A stretch of 50,506 bases of DNA. It comes from Synergistaceae bacterium. GTDB taxonomy: Bacteria; Synergistota; Synergistia; Synergistales; Synergistaceae. The notes beneath the pieces were generated by a model. The model saw nothing but the letters and a program-made list of their open reading frames with translations. It did not search any database and was not told the DNA's origin. The first letter of the stretch is position 1. Each line of letters starts with the position of its first letter. The position numbers were made by a program, and so were the translations under genes. The DNA is taken from NCBI GenBank assembly GCA_031269245.1, contig JAISZL010000004.1, positions 1 to 50,506 on the forward strand, read 5' to 3'. Positions 15,075 through 36,981 of this stretch are shown here, piece by piece.

Positions 15075-15788
15075 TCAGGGCAGCGGGACGACGGCCACTG
15101 GGTATCCCTTTCTCTCCAATTCAGCCGCCAGTTCCGCCGCGGCCTCCCTGGAGTTCCCCGCGCTCACCCGCACCCGGTGGAAGGTCTTGCCGGACGAGTC
15201 GACCTTGCTTATCGATGCGGCGTAACCCTGTTTCTCGACCTCGGACTGGAGCGTGGACGCGCCCTCACGTTTCACGAACGCGCCTATTTGAACCGCCCAT
15301 TTACCGCTCGCGCCTGCGGCAGCATTGGCGGTCTGCCGCTGTTTCGCCGGATTGGACGCGGCCGGCGTCTTCTCCTTCGCGTCTGCGGGGCGCGCTGAAA
15401 CGCCCTTCGCCTGCGTACTCGACGACGCCCTGACCGGTGTCCCGTTTGGGGCTATCGGCCCCGCCAGGATCATCGACTCGCCAGCCTTGCCGTCCGCCGC
15501 CGTATGGCCTGCCGGCCCGGCGGGACTCGCACTCTCCCGTTCCGCGAACTCGGGCTCCGGGGCTATGGGTGCCGCGGTAAGGGAGTTTTGAGCGTTCTCC
15601 TCGGCAATTGAGGGGGAAATGACCTCGATCCCCTCGATTCTGTCAACGGGCATCAGAAAAAAGAGCTTTATCCCGACGAACAGCAACACGAGAGCTATCA
15701 CGGCCGCGATCGGCAGAGCGAAATGACCGAACGTGAAACCCGATCCCCTATCCTTGTAACTTCTGCTTCTTCTTGACGTGGCTGCCAT
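15075..15788 (-). CDS. SPOR-domain membrane protein
   Basis: A bitopic inner-membrane protein of 237 residues. A basic cytoplasmic tail (1-24) is followed by one transmembrane helix (about 25-48), a long Ala/Pro/Thr-rich periplasmic linker (about 60-155), and a C-terminal SPOR domain (about 160-237) that begins WAVQIGAFVKREGA and contains FHRVRVSAG. SPOR domains bind glycan strands lacking stem peptides at division septa, as in FtsN and DedD, so a septal role is likely. It starts 12 bases after the radical SAM gene and is the last gene of the dcw cluster. It could be a functional analogue of FtsN, but that is inference from topology and context only. Confidence 0.85.
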   Translation of the reverse strand: MAATSRRSRSYKDRGSGFTFGHFALPIAAVIALVLLFVGIKLFFLMPVDRIEGIEVISPSIAEENAQNSLTAAPIAPEPEFAERESASPAGPAGHTAADGKAGESMILAGPIAPNGTPVRASSSTQAKGVSARPADAKEKTPAASNPAKQRQTANAAAGASGKWAVQIGAFVKREGASTLQSEVEKQGYAASISKVDSSGKTFHRVRVSAGNSREAAAELAAELERKGYPVAVVPLP

Positions 15789-15800
15789 GACAATACCTCC

Positions 15801-17336
15801 TTATTTAAGCTTTGCGATATCGCGCGTCAACCCCAGGCGTCTCAGTTCACTCGCGGCCTCCGGTCTGCTGACCTCATACAATAGCCTATTGTATGAAAAA
15901 CCCAGCGGCGCCCCATCCACCAAACGCCTGGACGTCTCAGGCGTCGCCCAGGAGAGCGCGTACTCCAGACACGCCTCCTTGATGCTCGCGATTTCCGCTA
16001 TCCCGCGTAGCGAGCCGTGGAATGACTTCAACAGGACGTCGCGCCCGCGCTTCAATTTTTTCAACGCATTCCCCTCCCCCTCGCCGCCGAATGGAGCATC
16101 GGCCCACCTCGTTCCCGGCTTTGGCACGAACGGCGCTATCGTCGCCGTCACCCGCAGACCAGTCGATTCCCTCACCCTCAGACAGAGATTCGAGATGGAC
16201 AGGAGGTGATGATCCTCCTCCCCGGGCAGCCCCATCATGAAGTACAGTTTCGCGCTCCTCACTCCCTCTCCCTTTGCCATTCGGAGCGTCTCGACTATGA
16301 GGTCATTGGTGAAACTCTTTCCGCATCGAGCCCTCAGCCGGTCGTCACCGCTCTCGGGAGCGACCGTGACGCTGCGCCTTCCGCCTCGGACGAGCGCGCG
16401 CACCATCTTTTGCGTCATCCCGTCCAGTCTGAGGGACGCGAACGAAATTCCCATTCCCCTCTCGCCGGCGAAGTCCAGCAACTCGTCCAGATCTTTATAA
16501 TCGCCCGCCTCCGGCGTAACGAGGCCTATCCTGCCGAGTTCGCTCCCGCGCGCGGCTTCGTCTATGTCGCGCTTCACCAGATCCAGATCTCTCTGCCTAG
16601 GAGGGCTGAAACACGCGGGCAGCGTACAGAATCCGCACCCTCTCGCGCAGCCCCTTTGAAGCTCAACCAGAAACGCGGCACCGAAAACCGTGCGAGGCGT
16701 CACCCAGTTCCCGTGACCGAAGTCGAGGTCGATGCCGCGCCTCGACGTCTCCAGAAGGTGAACCCCGCTCTCGTGTATCGCCGGAACGTATATCGAAGGG
16801 TGTTCCGCGAGCAGGGAAAGAACCCTGTCCCTCAAACGCTGCGACCTGACGACCTCCACGACGTGAGGCACAACGCCCACCCCGTCTCCCAGGACTACGA
16901 AGTCCGCGATCGCCGATAGCAGACACGGGTTTATGTACGTTACCGCGCCCCCGCAACCTATCAGAGGAGCCCCGCCGCGGCTCGCCCGCTCGGTCCTGGA
17001 TGGGGGTATCCCGGCGGACTCGAGCCACTTGACCAAGACGCGGGCGTCGGCCTCGTAGGATATGCCGCTCAAAATGACCTGAAACCTCTCCAGCAGCGTG
17101 TCCCTCTCGACTGAGCGGTGCGGCGCCGGCGACGCGAAGAAACGTTCCGCGGCGACGCCGAGCTCGCGAAGAGCTCTATATATATAATGAAATCCAAGGT
17201 TCGCCATCCCCACCGAGTAATCGGCCGGGAAGAAGAGCGCGCACGGCGAATCCCCCCCCGCCGGCAAGCTCGTCGTTGGTATCTCGTCAGCCCTGTAGCC
17301 GGACCAGGTGGCCCACGTCGTCGCCCTGTTGCCCAA
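15801..17336 (-). CDS. Radical SAM protein of unknown substrate, next to ftsZ
   Basis: A 511-residue radical SAM enzyme. The N-terminal 160 residues resemble the cobalamin-binding-like or Rossmann domain of uncharacterised radical SAM proteins (FFPADYSVGMANLGFHYIYR at 35-54). The SAM cluster motif is CARGCGFC (Cys230, Cys234, Cys237), followed by a barrel with YFMMGLPGEED and APESGDDRLR. The start is a TTG at 17336 with GAGGTGAG just upstream. It follows ftsZ by 84 bases and precedes the SPOR gene by 12, on the same strand, so it is probably co-transcribed with division genes. The substrate is unknown: methylthiolation, a peptide modification or another radical reaction are all possible. Confidence 0.85.
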   Translation of the reverse strand: MGNRATTWATWSGYRADEIPTTSLPAGGDSPCALFFPADYSVGMANLGFHYIYRALRELGVAAERFFASPAPHRSVERDTLLERFQVILSGISYEADARVLVKWLESAGIPPSRTERASRGGAPLIGCGGAVTYINPCLLSAIADFVVLGDGVGVVPHVVEVVRSQRLRDRVLSLLAEHPSIYVPAIHESGVHLLETSRRGIDLDFGHGNWVTPRTVFGAAFLVELQRGCARGCGFCTLPACFSPPRQRDLDLVKRDIDEAARGSELGRIGLVTPEAGDYKDLDELLDFAGERGMGISFASLRLDGMTQKMVRALVRGGRRSVTVAPESGDDRLRARCGKSFTNDLIVETLRMAKGEGVRSAKLYFMMGLPGEEDHHLLSISNLCLRVRESTGLRVTATIAPFVPKPGTRWADAPFGGEGEGNALKKLKRGRDVLLKSFHGSLRGIAEIASIKEACLEYALSWATPETSRRLVDGAPLGFSYNRLLYEVSRPEAASELRRLGLTRDIAKLK

Positions 17337-33091: not shown

Positions 33092-34024
33092 TTATGCCCG
33101 GATGGCCCTTTTCATATCGTCTATGACAAACGCCCTCAGTTTGGCGCTTCTAGAGCTTCTGTTGGACTCTCGCTCCTTCTCCGACGGGATAACGGGCTTA
33201 CGTGTAAGAGTCCTCCCGTATCCCTCTTCCGTCCAGTGTCGGAACGTCCTCTTCACGATCCTGTCCTCCAGGGAGTGATAGGAAATGACGATTATCGCGC
33301 CCCCTCCCCTGACGGATTCGTATGCGCCCATGAGCCCCTCGGGAATCACGTCTAGCTCGGAGTTCACCGCTATCCGCAACGCTTGAAAAACCCTTCGCGC
33401 CGGGTGCGTACCCATTTTTCTCTGCATTGGCGCCGGCAGCGTCCTTCGTATGAGTGCCGTCAGTTCCGCGCCGGTCGCCGGGAGATTCCCCGTGGTCCTC
33501 GATCGGGTGATGGCGCGGGCGATTGTGAAGGCGTTCCTCTCCTCTCCGTAATCCCTAAATATCCGTGTCAGTTCTCTCTCGTCGCAATCCCTTAGAATGT
33601 CCCATGCCCTCAGTGAGCTGCCCGATGCGTTCATCCTCATGTCCAGCGGTCCGTCGCTCTGGTACGAAAAACCCCTCTCGGGAGTCGTGAGCTGCATATT
33701 CGACACGCCGAGGTCGAATAGCGCGGCGCAGGCGCCCTCGTCCCTCTCGGAGTCCTCAAGTGACTCGAACATCTCAATGAAGTTCTCCCCGACTATCCGC
33801 ACCCTGTCGCCGAATTCAGCGAGACGCTCTCTCGCGATCTCACGCGCGCTCTCGTCCTGGTCGAAGCCGACAAGGCGCATGCCGCGATATTTTTCCAGGA
33901 CGGCGCGCGAGTGGCCGCCCCCGCCGAGCGTCGCATCGATAAAAAACGCACCGGCGTCCAAGGGGACGCGCGACATGAAAATATCCATGACCTCGTTCAG
34001 CATTACTGGAACGTGAGGGCTCAT
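33092..34024 (-). CDS. rsmH: 16S rRNA (cytosine(1402)-N4)-methyltransferase
   Basis: RsmH (MraW) methylates N4 of C1402 in the ribosomal P site with SAM as donor. The 310-residue protein starts MSPHVPVMLNEVMD, has the SAM-binding FIDATLGGGGHSRAVLE, FDQDESARE, DLGVSNMQL, the inserted substrate domain, and the C-terminal VISYHSLEDRIVKRTFRHW. Its start overlaps the mraZ stop by four bases (ATGA). It is the second gene of the dcw cluster, as in most bacteria. Confidence 0.97.
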   Translation of the reverse strand: MSPHVPVMLNEVMDIFMSRVPLDAGAFFIDATLGGGGHSRAVLEKYRGMRLVGFDQDESAREIARERLAEFGDRVRIVGENFIEMFESLEDSERDEGACAALFDLGVSNMQLTTPERGFSYQSDGPLDMRMNASGSSLRAWDILRDCDERELTRIFRDYGEERNAFTIARAITRSRTTGNLPATGAELTALIRRTLPAPMQRKMGTHPARRVFQALRIAVNSELDVIPEGLMGAYESVRGGGAIIVISYHSLEDRIVKRTFRHWTEEGYGRTLTRKPVIPSEKERESNRSSRSAKLRAFVIDDMKRAIRA

Positions 34025-34449
34025 AATCCAGGTATCAGCCTCGTCACTTCATTTGGAATCGGGTACATCTCGCTTACGAATTCGTTCCACACGCCCAGGT
34101 CCCATATCTCCAATTTTTCCACGTTCCCATTTACGCTCACGTCCTGCACGATGTTCACTCGGCTCCTCAACTGCTGGGGGAGCAGGATGCGCCCCATCGA
34201 ATCTATCTCCATGCTATGCGCGGACGCGATGATCGCCCTCCGGAAAGCGCTGACCTCGTGGTTCGACATGGAAGCCTCGGTCAGTCTCGAGACGGTGATC
34301 TCCCATTCGCTCTTTGGGTACACGGAAATATAGCTGCTCCCCACAAGGGCCGCCACCACATGATCGCCCAACTCGTCGCGAAAACGGGCGGGAAGCACGA
34401 TTCTTCCTTTTGCGTCGAGCTTGTGTGTGTAACTGCCCTGAAGCAACAT
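34021..34449 (-). CDS. mraZ: Transcriptional regulator MraZ
   Basis: MraZ is an AbrB-like DNA-binding protein that represses or tunes its own dcw operon. The 142-residue protein has the two tandem SpoVT/AbrB-type halves: HKLDAKGRIVLPARFRDELG near the start and ITVSRLTEASM-like spacer followed by DSMGRILLPQQLRS (about 90-105). It is the first gene of the cluster. The ATG has no close ribosome-binding site; the best, AAGGGG, is 17 bases upstream inside the repeat array, so the start may be weak or leader-controlled. Its probable operator is the repeat array at 34465-34511. Confidence 0.96.
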   Translation of the reverse strand: MLLQGSYTHKLDAKGRIVLPARFRDELGDHVVAALVGSSYISVYPKSEWEITVSRLTEASMSNHEVSAFRRAIIASAHSMEIDSMGRILLPQQLRSRVNIVQDVSVNGNVEKLEIWDLGVWNEFVSEMYPIPNEVTRLIPGL

Positions 34450-34464
34450 TGACGACCGTTCGCA

Positions 34465-34511
34465 TCCCCTTCAACCACTTTATGACATTGATTGCTACTT
34501 TTAGCCACTTT
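34465..34511 (-). promoter_or_regulatory. MraZ-box array (five direct repeats at 10-bp pitch)
   Basis: Read on the minus strand the 7-base boxes are AAAGTGG, AAAGTAG, TCAATGT, AAAGTGG and AAGGGGA, each separated by three bases. Two are exact copies, one is close, two are degenerate. The spacing and AAAGTG core are those described for MraZ operators in Mycoplasma. The first box overlaps the probable -10 element, which fits autorepression. Confidence 0.75.
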
Positions 34512-34535
34512 ACCATGATATCTCCCCTAAATCAA
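34507..34535 (-). promoter_or_regulatory. Candidate mraZ/dcw promoter
   Basis: On the minus strand TTGATT (34530-34535) and TAAAGT (34507-34512) are 17 bases apart. The -10 shares bases with the first MraZ box. Transcription would start near 34500, leaving a leader of about 50 bases that contains the other boxes. Confidence 0.5.
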
Positions 34536-34866
34536 GGGTATCGAGGAATATCAGCATAAAAATTGTTTCAAAAATCTACATTACTATTTGTATGTCCATT
34601 TACCTTTTTAAAACATCCATGCGCGTGAGGGCACAGCTGTGTTTGAACTGATATATTCGAAAATATTCAGAGGCGGTTTGTTTCCATCATCGTCGACGAG
34701 CACAAACTGAATGTATCGCATACTCACCGCTGTCGGACGGCATATTGAAAGCGTGCTGAAGACAGAAGCTCCCCGGACGGGAAGGCGCCAAGGCTCTCGC
34801 TGTTGCCCCGGCGTGGGTGAACGCGGCAGGTTTTCCCCTGAAAATTTCAGTCGTACCCCGCGCCGA
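34536..34866. other. Gene-free accessory spacer between mraZ and the formyltransferase
   Basis: I see no convincing gene. On the minus strand a short frame at about 34608-34721 reads MRYIQFVLVDDDGNKPPLNI and continues to a stop; it has no ribosome-binding site and could be a decayed gene end. The G+C content changes within the stretch, from low near 34560-34620 to high near 34760-34850, as if unrelated pieces were joined. Confidence 0.4.
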
Positions 34867-34867
34867 G

Positions 34868-34876
34868 TGCTATAAT
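34868..34876 (+). promoter_or_regulatory. Extended -10 promoter of the formyltransferase gene
   Basis: TGCTATAAT is a perfect extended -10 element (TG, one base, TATAAT), about 95 bases before the ATG at 34971. No strong -35 is present, as is usual for extended -10 promoters. Confidence 0.6.
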
Positions 34877-34947
34877 GCATAAAATCAGTTTTATACACGA
34901 TTCCTAAAATCATCAAGCAAGACCAAACAATGTAGTATTTATTTGAG

Positions 34948-34974
34948 ATGAGGAAGGTGTTTTGTAAATTATGA
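34948..34974 (+). promoter_or_regulatory. Eight-codon upstream frame overlapping the formyltransferase start
   Basis: ATG at 34948 opens eight codons and stops at TGA 34972-34974, so the stop overlaps the ATG at 34971 as ATGA. The only ribosome-binding-like site for the main ATG, GGAAGG at 34952-34957, lies 13 bases away inside this short frame. Coupled re-initiation is possible; a meaningless overlap is equally so. Confidence 0.3.
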
Positions 34975-35695
34975 AACCAACCAACCAACCAACCAACCAA
35001 CCAACCAACCAACCAACCAACCAACCAGTAAATCTATACTTTTTCTTGGCAAAAAAAACGACGAATATTGTGGTAAGGCACTGACTTTTACGCAAAAAAA
35101 CTTTGAAAATGTGACGCATTTTCTAGGTAAATGGGGCGACTCTCTGCCGGAGGATATTAGCTGGTGGGAAGGCGATTATATCATATCGTACTTGTCTCGA
35201 TGGGTGATCCCCGAGTATATGATAAAAAAAGCGAAAAAAGCCGCTATTAATTTTCATCCAGCATCTCCAGCCTATCCTGGAGTTGGTTGCTGTAATTTCG
35301 CTTTATATGAAAATGCATCGGAATATGGGGTCACTTGCCATCGCATGAATAAAAATATCGACGCTGGTGATATCATTGCCGTCAAATATTTTCCCGTATT
35401 CCCCACAGATGACGTCCATTCATTGCTTTCACGGACATATGATTTCCAGTTGACTTTATTCTATGAGATTATCGGGAAAATTATCATGGGTGAAGATCTC
35501 CCCGCATCGTCCGAAAAATGGGGGAGAAAACCTTTTTCAAGAAAAGAATTAAATGAGTTATACAAAATCACCATTGAGATGGATCAAGCTGAAATTAAAA
35601 AACGCATTAGGGCGACAAATTATATGCGATTTAAACCCACTATACTGCTTGGCGATTATCAGTTTGTATTGAAAGAACAAATATATAATTCCTGA
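34971..35695 (+). CDS. Sugar formyltransferase, phase-variable, start codon out of frame (OFF)
   Basis: The enzyme is likely to transfer a formyl group from formyl-tetrahydrofolate to an amino sugar used in surface glycans. Continuous protein similarity begins right after the repeats (SKSILFLGKKNDEYCGKALT from about 35027) and runs to 35695. It includes AAINFHPASPAYPGVGC, with the Asn and His of the formyltransferase Asn-His-Asp triad, and HRMNKNIDAGDII with the Asp. The only start with correct context, ATG 34971, is 140 bases before the in-frame GTG at 35111, so it is off by two; it now yields a 37-residue peptide ending at TGA 35082-35084. One more AACC, or two fewer, restores a 242-residue enzyme of normal family length. 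Starting at GTG 35111 would lose the N-terminal strand. G+C is about 37-40% in rows counted, well below the core. The exact sugar is unknown. Confidence 0.85.
34975..35026 (+). repeat. Tetranucleotide repeat (AACC)13 inside the formyltransferase start
   Basis: Thirteen perfect, uninterrupted AACC units (equivalently twelve CCAA units plus CCA) begin two bases after the ATG codon at 34971. They encode a repeating Pro-Thr-Asn-Gln peptide in any frame order. Such repeats change length by slipped-strand mispairing and are the hallmark of phase-variable genes. Confidence 0.95.
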
Positions 35696-35770: not shown

Positions 35771-36595
35771 TCAGCGGCAGCGCTGCTTCGTCAGGATGAT
35801 CTCAGCGCCATTCCTCGCTATCAGCGTAAGTTCGTTTCTCTGAATCCTGAACCTCGACACGTGCGACAGCAGATCGAGGAACTCGTCCTCCTGCTTCATC
35901 AACTCAGGCCTTCCTCCCATCCGTGTCGTCACTCCTCGGCCTATGATGATCCTGCTGCCGTGTTTCAGCCACGCGACGTTGTAGCTGTTGACCGACGCGT
36001 TTCCGCTAATGCGCCCGTCGGAGTGGAAGGTGACTGTCACGTTTGAGCCATCGATGACATCGCTGCCGCCGATGCTCTTGGCTCTCCACTCGACTTCGGC
36101 CGGCAGGTCTTGGTCCGGCAGCCATATGCCGCCTCTCTCCATCCACGCCTCGTAGTCTGAGTAGTCATTTCCCTCAATCGACAGCATGGCCGCTGGGCCC
36201 TTGCTCCAGAAGACGGTGGCAGGGTCGTCCAACGCCTCGTATTTCGCGCCCGACGCCGACACAACTTGCCTCATCGCATAGTTTTTGCCGTCCGCCGTGA
36301 GGATCAGCCCGCCCTCGCCGAGCGAGTCCCTCAGTAACACGTAGCGTGTCTGTTCCAGACCCTCGATCGCAAAGACCGAGTATCCCCCGTTGCTCGAGAA
36401 GCAGGTCGATGGGTCGCCCGTAGCCTCATACCTCTCGCCCGAGGACGACCGCGCCCGATTTAGGACGTACATCCTGCCGTTCTTGTAGAAGAAGAGCTCA
36501 TCCGTCGCGGAACTCGTATCCGCAAGCGCGCCCACCTCCAAAATAGCCAAAATCACCGCCGCGAGCATCGCCGCCTTGAAGAATTTTCCAGTCAT
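35771..36595 (-). CDS. Secreted protein with two MliC-like repeats and a META domain
   Basis: A 274-residue exported protein. The ATG at 36595 has GGAGGCAGGGG upstream; the frame is open 31 codons more but without signal. Residues 1-25 form a signal peptide ending GALA. Two similar segments follow: about 33-80 (NRARSSSGERYEATGDPSTC) and about 95-141 (RQVVSASGAKYEALDDPATV then FWSKG). They match the SASGARY and FWxKG pattern of MliC, an inhibitor of C-type lysozyme. Residues about 165-271 form a META/HslJ domain (FHSDGRISGNASVNSY, TTRMGGRPELMKQEDEF). The two cysteines usual in META domains are replaced (ASVN, MGG). It may protect peptidoglycan from host lysozyme. It is a single gene convergent with the formyltransferase. 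Confidence 0.7.
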   Translation of the reverse strand: MTGKFFKAAMLAAVILAILEVGALADTSSATDELFFYKNGRMYVLNRARSSSGERYEATGDPSTCFSSNGGYSVFAIEGLEQTRYVLLRDSLGEGGLILTADGKNYAMRQVVSASGAKYEALDDPATVFWSKGPAAMLSIEGNDYSDYEAWMERGGIWLPDQDLPAEVEWRAKSIGGSDVIDGSNVTVTFHSDGRISGNASVNSYNVAWLKHGSRIIIGRGVTTRMGGRPELMKQEDEFLDLLSHVSRFRIQRNELTLIARNGAEIILTKQRCR

Positions 36596-36981
36596 GCCCC
36601 CTGCCTCCTTATTGGGTAGTATTGTTTTGGAGCGAATATATTTTACATCCCCCGGGGAAAAATAAAACGATAAATCTCGCGTTGTCATCGAAGAGACCGG
36701 CAGGGGACATCGAGACCATCATCTCGGGCGAAAGAGCGGGCTGACGCCGCTCAAAAATGACCGCGCTTACCAGACAGGCCATAATTCATTTGCTTTTGGC
36801 GATATGCGAGAGTATGCTGTAACAAGTCAAGGAAACGCTGATTTGCCGCTAAGGGTCTGAACGGCAAAGAGTCAAATCAAGCCGCGGCATGTTCCCTAAA
36901 ACGCTTGAATGGCGTTTAGGTCGTTTAACCAGCGATTCCTTGACCAAGCACGTTTGGATTTGCGGGGGAGGGGTATGCGCG
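36596..36981. other. Gene-free region between two divergent genes
   Basis: No gene was found. It should hold the promoters of the MliC/META gene (TAAAAT and TATATT words near 36635-36650 on the minus strand) and of the transporter (TTGACC near 36938). A weak inverted repeat, CTAAAACGC with GCGTTTAG, lies at about 36895-36918; it has no T-run. Confidence 0.5.

Follow-up and report, generated by a model that had tools for sequence, protein, structure and literature searches.

In Mollicutes the core site of MraZ is given as (AAAGTGKN3)3 (PMC5282649, quoting Fisunov et al. 2016), and an octameric MraZ ring is described for the same group (PMC7761207). Burkholderia cenocepacia has four repeats, each of 7 nt and separated by 3 nt, within a DNA fragment that purified MraZ shifts, and these repeats overlap the start site, downstream of a putative -10 box; the same source places the E. 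coli operator downstream of the -10 element, and names E. coli, M. gallisepticum and C. glutamicum, in addition to B. cenocepacia, as species in which a MraZ box has been shown (PMC7761207). MraZ is stated to repress the cluster in M. genitalium (PMC8475190) and is reported to do so in E. coli (PMC7761207). In M. gallisepticum, FtsZ goes up when MraZ is overexpressed (cited in PMC8475190), a result compatible with activation in that species. A literature search, with most subscription journals outside it, found no report of a MraZ operator in Synergistaceae among the papers listed.

The stretch analysed here, called the window, comprises 50,506 nucleotides from the draft genome of a Synergistaceae bacterium (2.34 Mb in 98 contigs). 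Its array of boxes in front of mraZ is like the Mollicutes operator in the AAAGTG core, the 10-bp pitch, the G or T at position 7 and the position 5' of a mraZ that heads a division cluster. It differs in having four units in register, with a weak variant as the third, and in a predicted -10 element that is fused to box 1, a feature of the genus; the host differs as well, the Synergistaceae cluster carrying the full set of peptidoglycan genes. The operator of B. cenocepacia is alike in the number, length and spacing of its repeats and in overlapping the start site (a predicted one here), and unlike in lying downstream of the putative -10 box, and the E. coli site is also downstream of the -10 element, whereas box 1 here coincides with the predicted one. 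We consider it about 90% probable that the array serves as the operator by which MraZ, encoded first in the dcw cluster, controls its own expression; MraZ would repress by covering the predicted -10 element, the start site and the leader. As a MraZ operator of the known, ordinary kind the array appears well supported by sequence comparison. What we have not seen described is the -10 fusion in the genus, and the split form of the array that in sister species accompanies a changed MraZ residue.

The dcw cluster and its box array

The predicted MraZ contains LDAKGRI at residues 11-17 and IDSMGRI at residues 82-88, the motifs of its two MraZ (AbrB-like) repeats. The curated cut-off of PF02381 is 23 bits, against 97.5 for the protein, and each repeat alone is also above it; the sequence matches the solved MraZ structures 1n0e, 9qlr, 9sx6 and 9qlg, and mraZ is the single PF02381 locus found in the genome. 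The gene is the first of the dcw cluster, with the array directly upstream of it. Beyond rsmH, the Pfam families are transpeptidase/PBP dimer, Mur ligase (four ORFs) and glycosyl transferase 4 (MraY type), as well as FtsW, MurG-type, MurB, FtsA and FtsZ, and two ORFs that have no Pfam match were named ftsL and ftsQ by position only. The cluster had been put at 17 genes in the first-pass annotation, which agrees, as a count of ORFs only, with 17 consecutive minus-strand ORFs of our choosing, 15 of them with a Pfam match and no gap between them above 155 bp; additional minus-strand ORFs continue past the 17. The radical-SAM and SPOR-domain ORFs, which are counted in the 17, possibly lie in the same transcript as ftsZ. 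The gap upstream of the predicted mraZ promoter holds a run of 13 AACC-type tetranucleotide repeats (34975-35026), and upstream of the dcw cluster an ORF on the minus strand encodes META and MliC (lysozyme-inhibitor) domains (35771-36688).

Table 1. Features of the array, the predicted promoter and the genes named in the text (window coordinates).
Feature	Position	Strand	Remarks
-35 element TTGATT, predicted	34530..34535	-	17 bp upstream of the -10 element
Extended -10 TGG (TGn), predicted	34513..34515	-	TGn kept in genus members
-10 element TAAAGT, predicted	34507..34512	-	fused with box 1
MraZ box 1, AAAGTG	34506..34511	-	unit 9.1 bits; fused with predicted -10
MraZ box 2, AAAGTA	34496..34501	-	unit 6.1 bits
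MraZ box 3, TCAATG, weak	34486..34491	-	unit 0.3 bits
MraZ box 4, AAAGTG	34476..34481	-	unit 11.0 bits
GAAGGGG, including AAGGGG core 34466-34471	34466..34472	-	unit -2.7 bits; putative mraZ ribosome-binding site
mraZ, 142 aa	34021..34449	-	PF02381, 97.5 bits, 2 stretches
rsmH (mraW)	33092..34024	-	PF01795, 303.7 bits; 4-bp overlap with mraZ
Radical-SAM ORF and SPOR-domain ORF	15075-17336		directly behind ftsZ; Pfam

Read from 34512 along the minus strand, the DNA is TAAAGTGGCT AAAAGTAGCA ATCAATGTCA TAAAGTGGTT GAAGGGGATG. The AAAGTG-type cores, which are GTG-centred direct repeats, follow one another 5' of mraZ at an exact 10-bp pitch from 34511 down to 34476, so the first-pass annotation had the pitch and the location (34465-34535) right. 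We scored the units with a 10-bp matrix trained on the mraZ upstream regions of 48 relatives, leaving out the genome itself and its nearest relative (L002); the training set included the near-duplicates L015 and L051, and the region of L045 with a misplaced start. The matrix consensus is AAAGTG followed by G or T, a variable base, A and a second variable base, with 0.74 G and 0.23 T at position 7. Among the relatives, 13 of 43 penultimate boxes have T at this position, whereas 43 of 48 last boxes have G. By matrix score boxes 1, 2 and 4 are convincing, box 3 is weak, and AAGGGG is no box.

The four-unit site reaches 26.5 bits and ranks first in the 50.5-kb window; among the places listed that lie clear of the array, the top score is 8.3 bits. 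In 20 dinucleotide shuffles of the window the maxima went up to 16.7 bits, and when the 300 bp upstream of mraZ were shuffled 2000 times the site's score was never reached (top shuffle 14.6). A search of the window with AAAGTGN4AAAGTG, allowing two mismatches, gave 4 matches against 1.56 expected, and at least 4 in 6 of 100 shuffles. The plain consensus is a poor test because the boxes of this site are themselves degenerate, but its frequency does speak for reading the array as a chance likeness, made up of an A-rich leader, a -10 element and a ribosome-binding site. The local shuffles argue against this, and so does the conservation of the array with mraZ and its absence without the gene (see below); the probability of a chance likeness is negligible.

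The array in genomes with and without mraZ

We examined 53 loci at first, among them the genome itself, L031, whose upstream sequence is that of L002, and two loci that do not belong to the family, L032 and L033. Over four units 52 of the 53 score at least 10.7 bits, 46 lie above the top shuffled-window maximum of 16.7, and 36 outscore the site studied here. The exception is L045 with its misplaced start codon, and after correction three of its units exceed 2 bits. When units above 2 bits are counted in 48 loci (omitting L031, L032, L033, L015 and L051), there are two in 4 loci, three in 11, four in 25 and five in 8, and these numbers are low estimates because split arrays were scored by their best sub-array only. 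The array had been thought to hold more boxes than are found in other taxa, a claim that is not borne out, as four is the commonest number here and B. cenocepacia is also given four (PMC7761207).

From 38 new mraZ-positive genomes we held out a sample of 20, none of them used in training, and all 20 score at least 10.6 bits. In regions of equal length, 315 bases, the score was reached by none of 300 shuffles in 19 of the genomes and by one of 300 in the last, although the lowest locus scores (10.6-15.2 bits) overlap with single shuffle maxima. In one held-out genome (L078) the array stands 121 bp ahead of the assumed start. The first-pass annotation had proposed a MraZ-type operator overlapping the dcw promoter and had made it depend on the boxes recurring upstream of mraZ in relatives; they do recur, and at the level of sequence comparison this proposal appears to be sound, with the promoter being a predicted one. 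Outside the relatives the comparison covers E. coli K-12 and the distant MAG loci L032 and L033, which have three units above 2 bits each, beginning 108 nt before the gene. Three loci of family f11 (L085, L086, L087) have short arrays of two or three units above 2 bits, with TGTGGATAAC immediately before.

No PF02381 match was found in 42 of 121 genomes, but these are drafts and a missing mraZ can reflect an assembly gap. We took 13 of the 42 together with G037, G046 and G054, and of these 16 genomes 15 have a readable region upstream of rsmH, G073 being without an rsmH match. In an earlier set of mraZ-less genomes there was no rsmH match in G019, G028 and G057, and the region upstream of rsmH was unreadable in G008, G010 and G045. 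In all 15 readable genomes the upstream region of rsmH, taken at equal length, scores -0.9 bits or less, and its best score is reached by 11 to 269 of 300 shuffles. The array is thus found with mraZ in 20 of 20 held-out genomes, and absent in 15 of 15 where mraZ is absent. As 14 of the 15 belong to one genus, g23, and the last is G021, they represent about two independent losses. All 19 genomes of g23, in family f3 (G037, G046, G054 and G078-G093), are without PF02381 while other genera of f3 have it, and the loss of mraZ is probably genus-wide. In G021 (L058), where mraZ was not found, TTGCCA-17-TAGAGTG persists about 216 bp upstream of rsmH, with no array above shuffles. In G129 (L068), from the same genus, mraZ is present, together with TTGTCA-17-TAAAGTG and an array that scores 24.5 bits. 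In this way the known range of the MraZ box comes to include Synergistaceae and the phylum they belong to, and the presence of arrays with mraZ and their absence without it serve as a natural control.

A two-unit pattern was searched in 60 relatives and the genome itself, and 37 of its 46 matches lie directly upstream of mraZ; the remaining 9 compare with 15 for a reversed control. This concentration at mraZ suggests that MraZ in the lineage regulates its own cluster. At the same stringency the two-unit pattern gave no match in the genome studied here, its own site included. A pattern made from boxes 1, 2 and 4 matched the genome with one mismatch at the site only, and with three mismatches at one other place, the control giving one match. 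Three consecutive units with up to three mismatches missed the site, which needs four, and hit two other places against three control matches. A wider regulon in this genome was rejected, since pattern matches elsewhere were not above controls. One relative, G043, has a second two-unit pair about 7.4 kb downstream of mraZ (G043:C1:236955-236973), and two other genomes of its genus, searched at up to one mismatch, gave no such pair.

A fifth unit and the boxes of E. coli

When the mraZ operator of E. coli K-12, reportedly the one of Eraso et al. 2014, is scored with the same matrix, the register is the same and there are four successive units above 2 bits. These are TCAGTGGGAA, ATTGTGGGGC, AAAGTGGGAA and TAAGGGGTGA with 4.4, 7.2, 12.0 and 3.3 bits, the third containing AAAGTGGG, and the last unit probably overlaps the ribosome-binding site. 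Because E. coli fits the same matrix, the contrast between a Mycoplasma and an enteric box falls, and with it the view of the first-pass annotation that the array was of the former rather than the latter type. The two kinds of box fit one motif.

The first-pass annotation had also counted five boxes, with AAGGGG as a weak fifth site whose partial occupancy might tune expression. The core of AAGGGG is in exact register, and the unit at its place scores 9.2 in L004, a member of the genus. Across many further genera the last box merges into the likely ribosome-binding site, and TAAGGGGTGA of E. coli is in register too. The AAGGGG unit itself scores negatively with the matrix, and GAAGGGG is explicable by ribosome binding alone; the relatives have a G-rich stretch resembling a ribosome-binding site near its position.

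We compared the site with the nearest relative, L002, whose MraZ is 85% identical (a scan of genome contigs with MraZ returned three relatives). In an ungapped alignment from the -35 element the cores of boxes 2 and 4 are kept in 6 of 6 bases each and that of box 1 in 5 of 6, as compared to 1 of 6 for the AAGGGG core. As a yardstick, 70 of 120 third codon positions agree where the amino acid is conserved. Box 3 is intermediate, with 3 of 6 core bases kept, and the heptamer ATGTCAT across and after its core (34488-34482) is identical. Immediately 5' of the -35 element 21 of 26 bases are kept, so the array is not the sole conserved stretch. The fifth unit neither resembles a MraZ box nor is conserved like one, and a five-box operator is unlikely. 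The array is best read as an operator of four boxes with a weak third, and AAGGGG as a candidate ribosome-binding site.

The predicted promoter, proposed repression and possible changes in the genus

The boxes had been said to start in the -10 region, and this agrees with the predicted promoter, where box 1 is fused to the -10 element. The geometry TTGnnn-17-TAnnnTG, with a TGn before the -10 element and TAnnnTG forming box 1, is present in nine of the nine mraZ-bearing genus members searched, the genome itself included, so that the count comes from related species; in a chance control TTG-N20-TAnnnTG was present in 177 of 9000 shuffled upstream regions. The pair TCGATA/TATCAT from a simple promoter scan was set aside and the conserved pair TTGATT/TAAAGT preferred. 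In the 48 loci, a TTG at the distance of the promoter with box 1 is the commonest arrangement, with 17 loci, followed by a distance of 38 bp with 10; TAnnnT at the first box is found in 31 loci and a TGn preceding it in 16. These counts imply that the fusion of box 1 with the -10 element is not phylum-wide. In G129 the TAAAGTG of the -10 element does not share the register of the array that follows.

Box 1 lies on the predicted -10 element and boxes 2-4 span the predicted start site and the leader, and we therefore propose that binding excludes RNA polymerase. A MraZ ring would bind up to four AAAGTG(G/T)-type units, spaced about one helical turn, and the bound protein would keep the polymerase away, giving less transcription of mraZ, rsmH and the genes behind. 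At low MraZ the extended -10 promoter would fire and MraZ would be restored. A first box that doubles as the predicted -10 element offers a simple and testable geometry for repression.

It is conceivable that MraZ is instead an activator of the cluster here, as the rise of FtsZ with MraZ overexpression in M. gallisepticum (cited in PMC8475190) could suggest. This we regard as quite improbable, for the position of box 1 on the predicted -10 element and of the other boxes downstream is a geometry of steric repression, and in the mraZ-less G021 a promoter motif of the same geometry is still readable without an array. The array also lies mostly downstream of the predicted start site, and the repeats might then work in the RNA leader, through structure or protein binding, and not as a DNA operator. 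Box 1 is within the predicted -10 element and hence upstream of the transcript, the 71 nt from 34500 to 34430 do not fold better than shuffled sequence (z +0.98; of 200 shuffles, 169 folded as well or better), and Rfam gave no match up to E 1 in 33900-35300. It is very improbable that the repeats act in this way, and steric repression by MraZ on the DNA is the reading we prefer.

The array is split in five of the nine genus members, the second sub-array beginning 30-31 bp after box 1. It may be that the operator has been rebuilt in this genus, with box 1 turned into the -10 element of an extended -10 promoter, the array weakened or split by 30-31 bp, and MraZ changed along with it (Cys22), but we hold this tentatively and at somewhat less than even odds. 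If true, the genus would have a lineage-specific pair of MraZ and operator, in which autorepression is kept with fewer strong boxes. Residue 22 of MraZ is Cys in seven of the nine genus members (L003-L006, L009, L012 and L023), and not the usual Arg or Lys after LP[AS]; five of these loci have the split operator. Outside the genus, L047, L050 and L051 have Pro at this residue.
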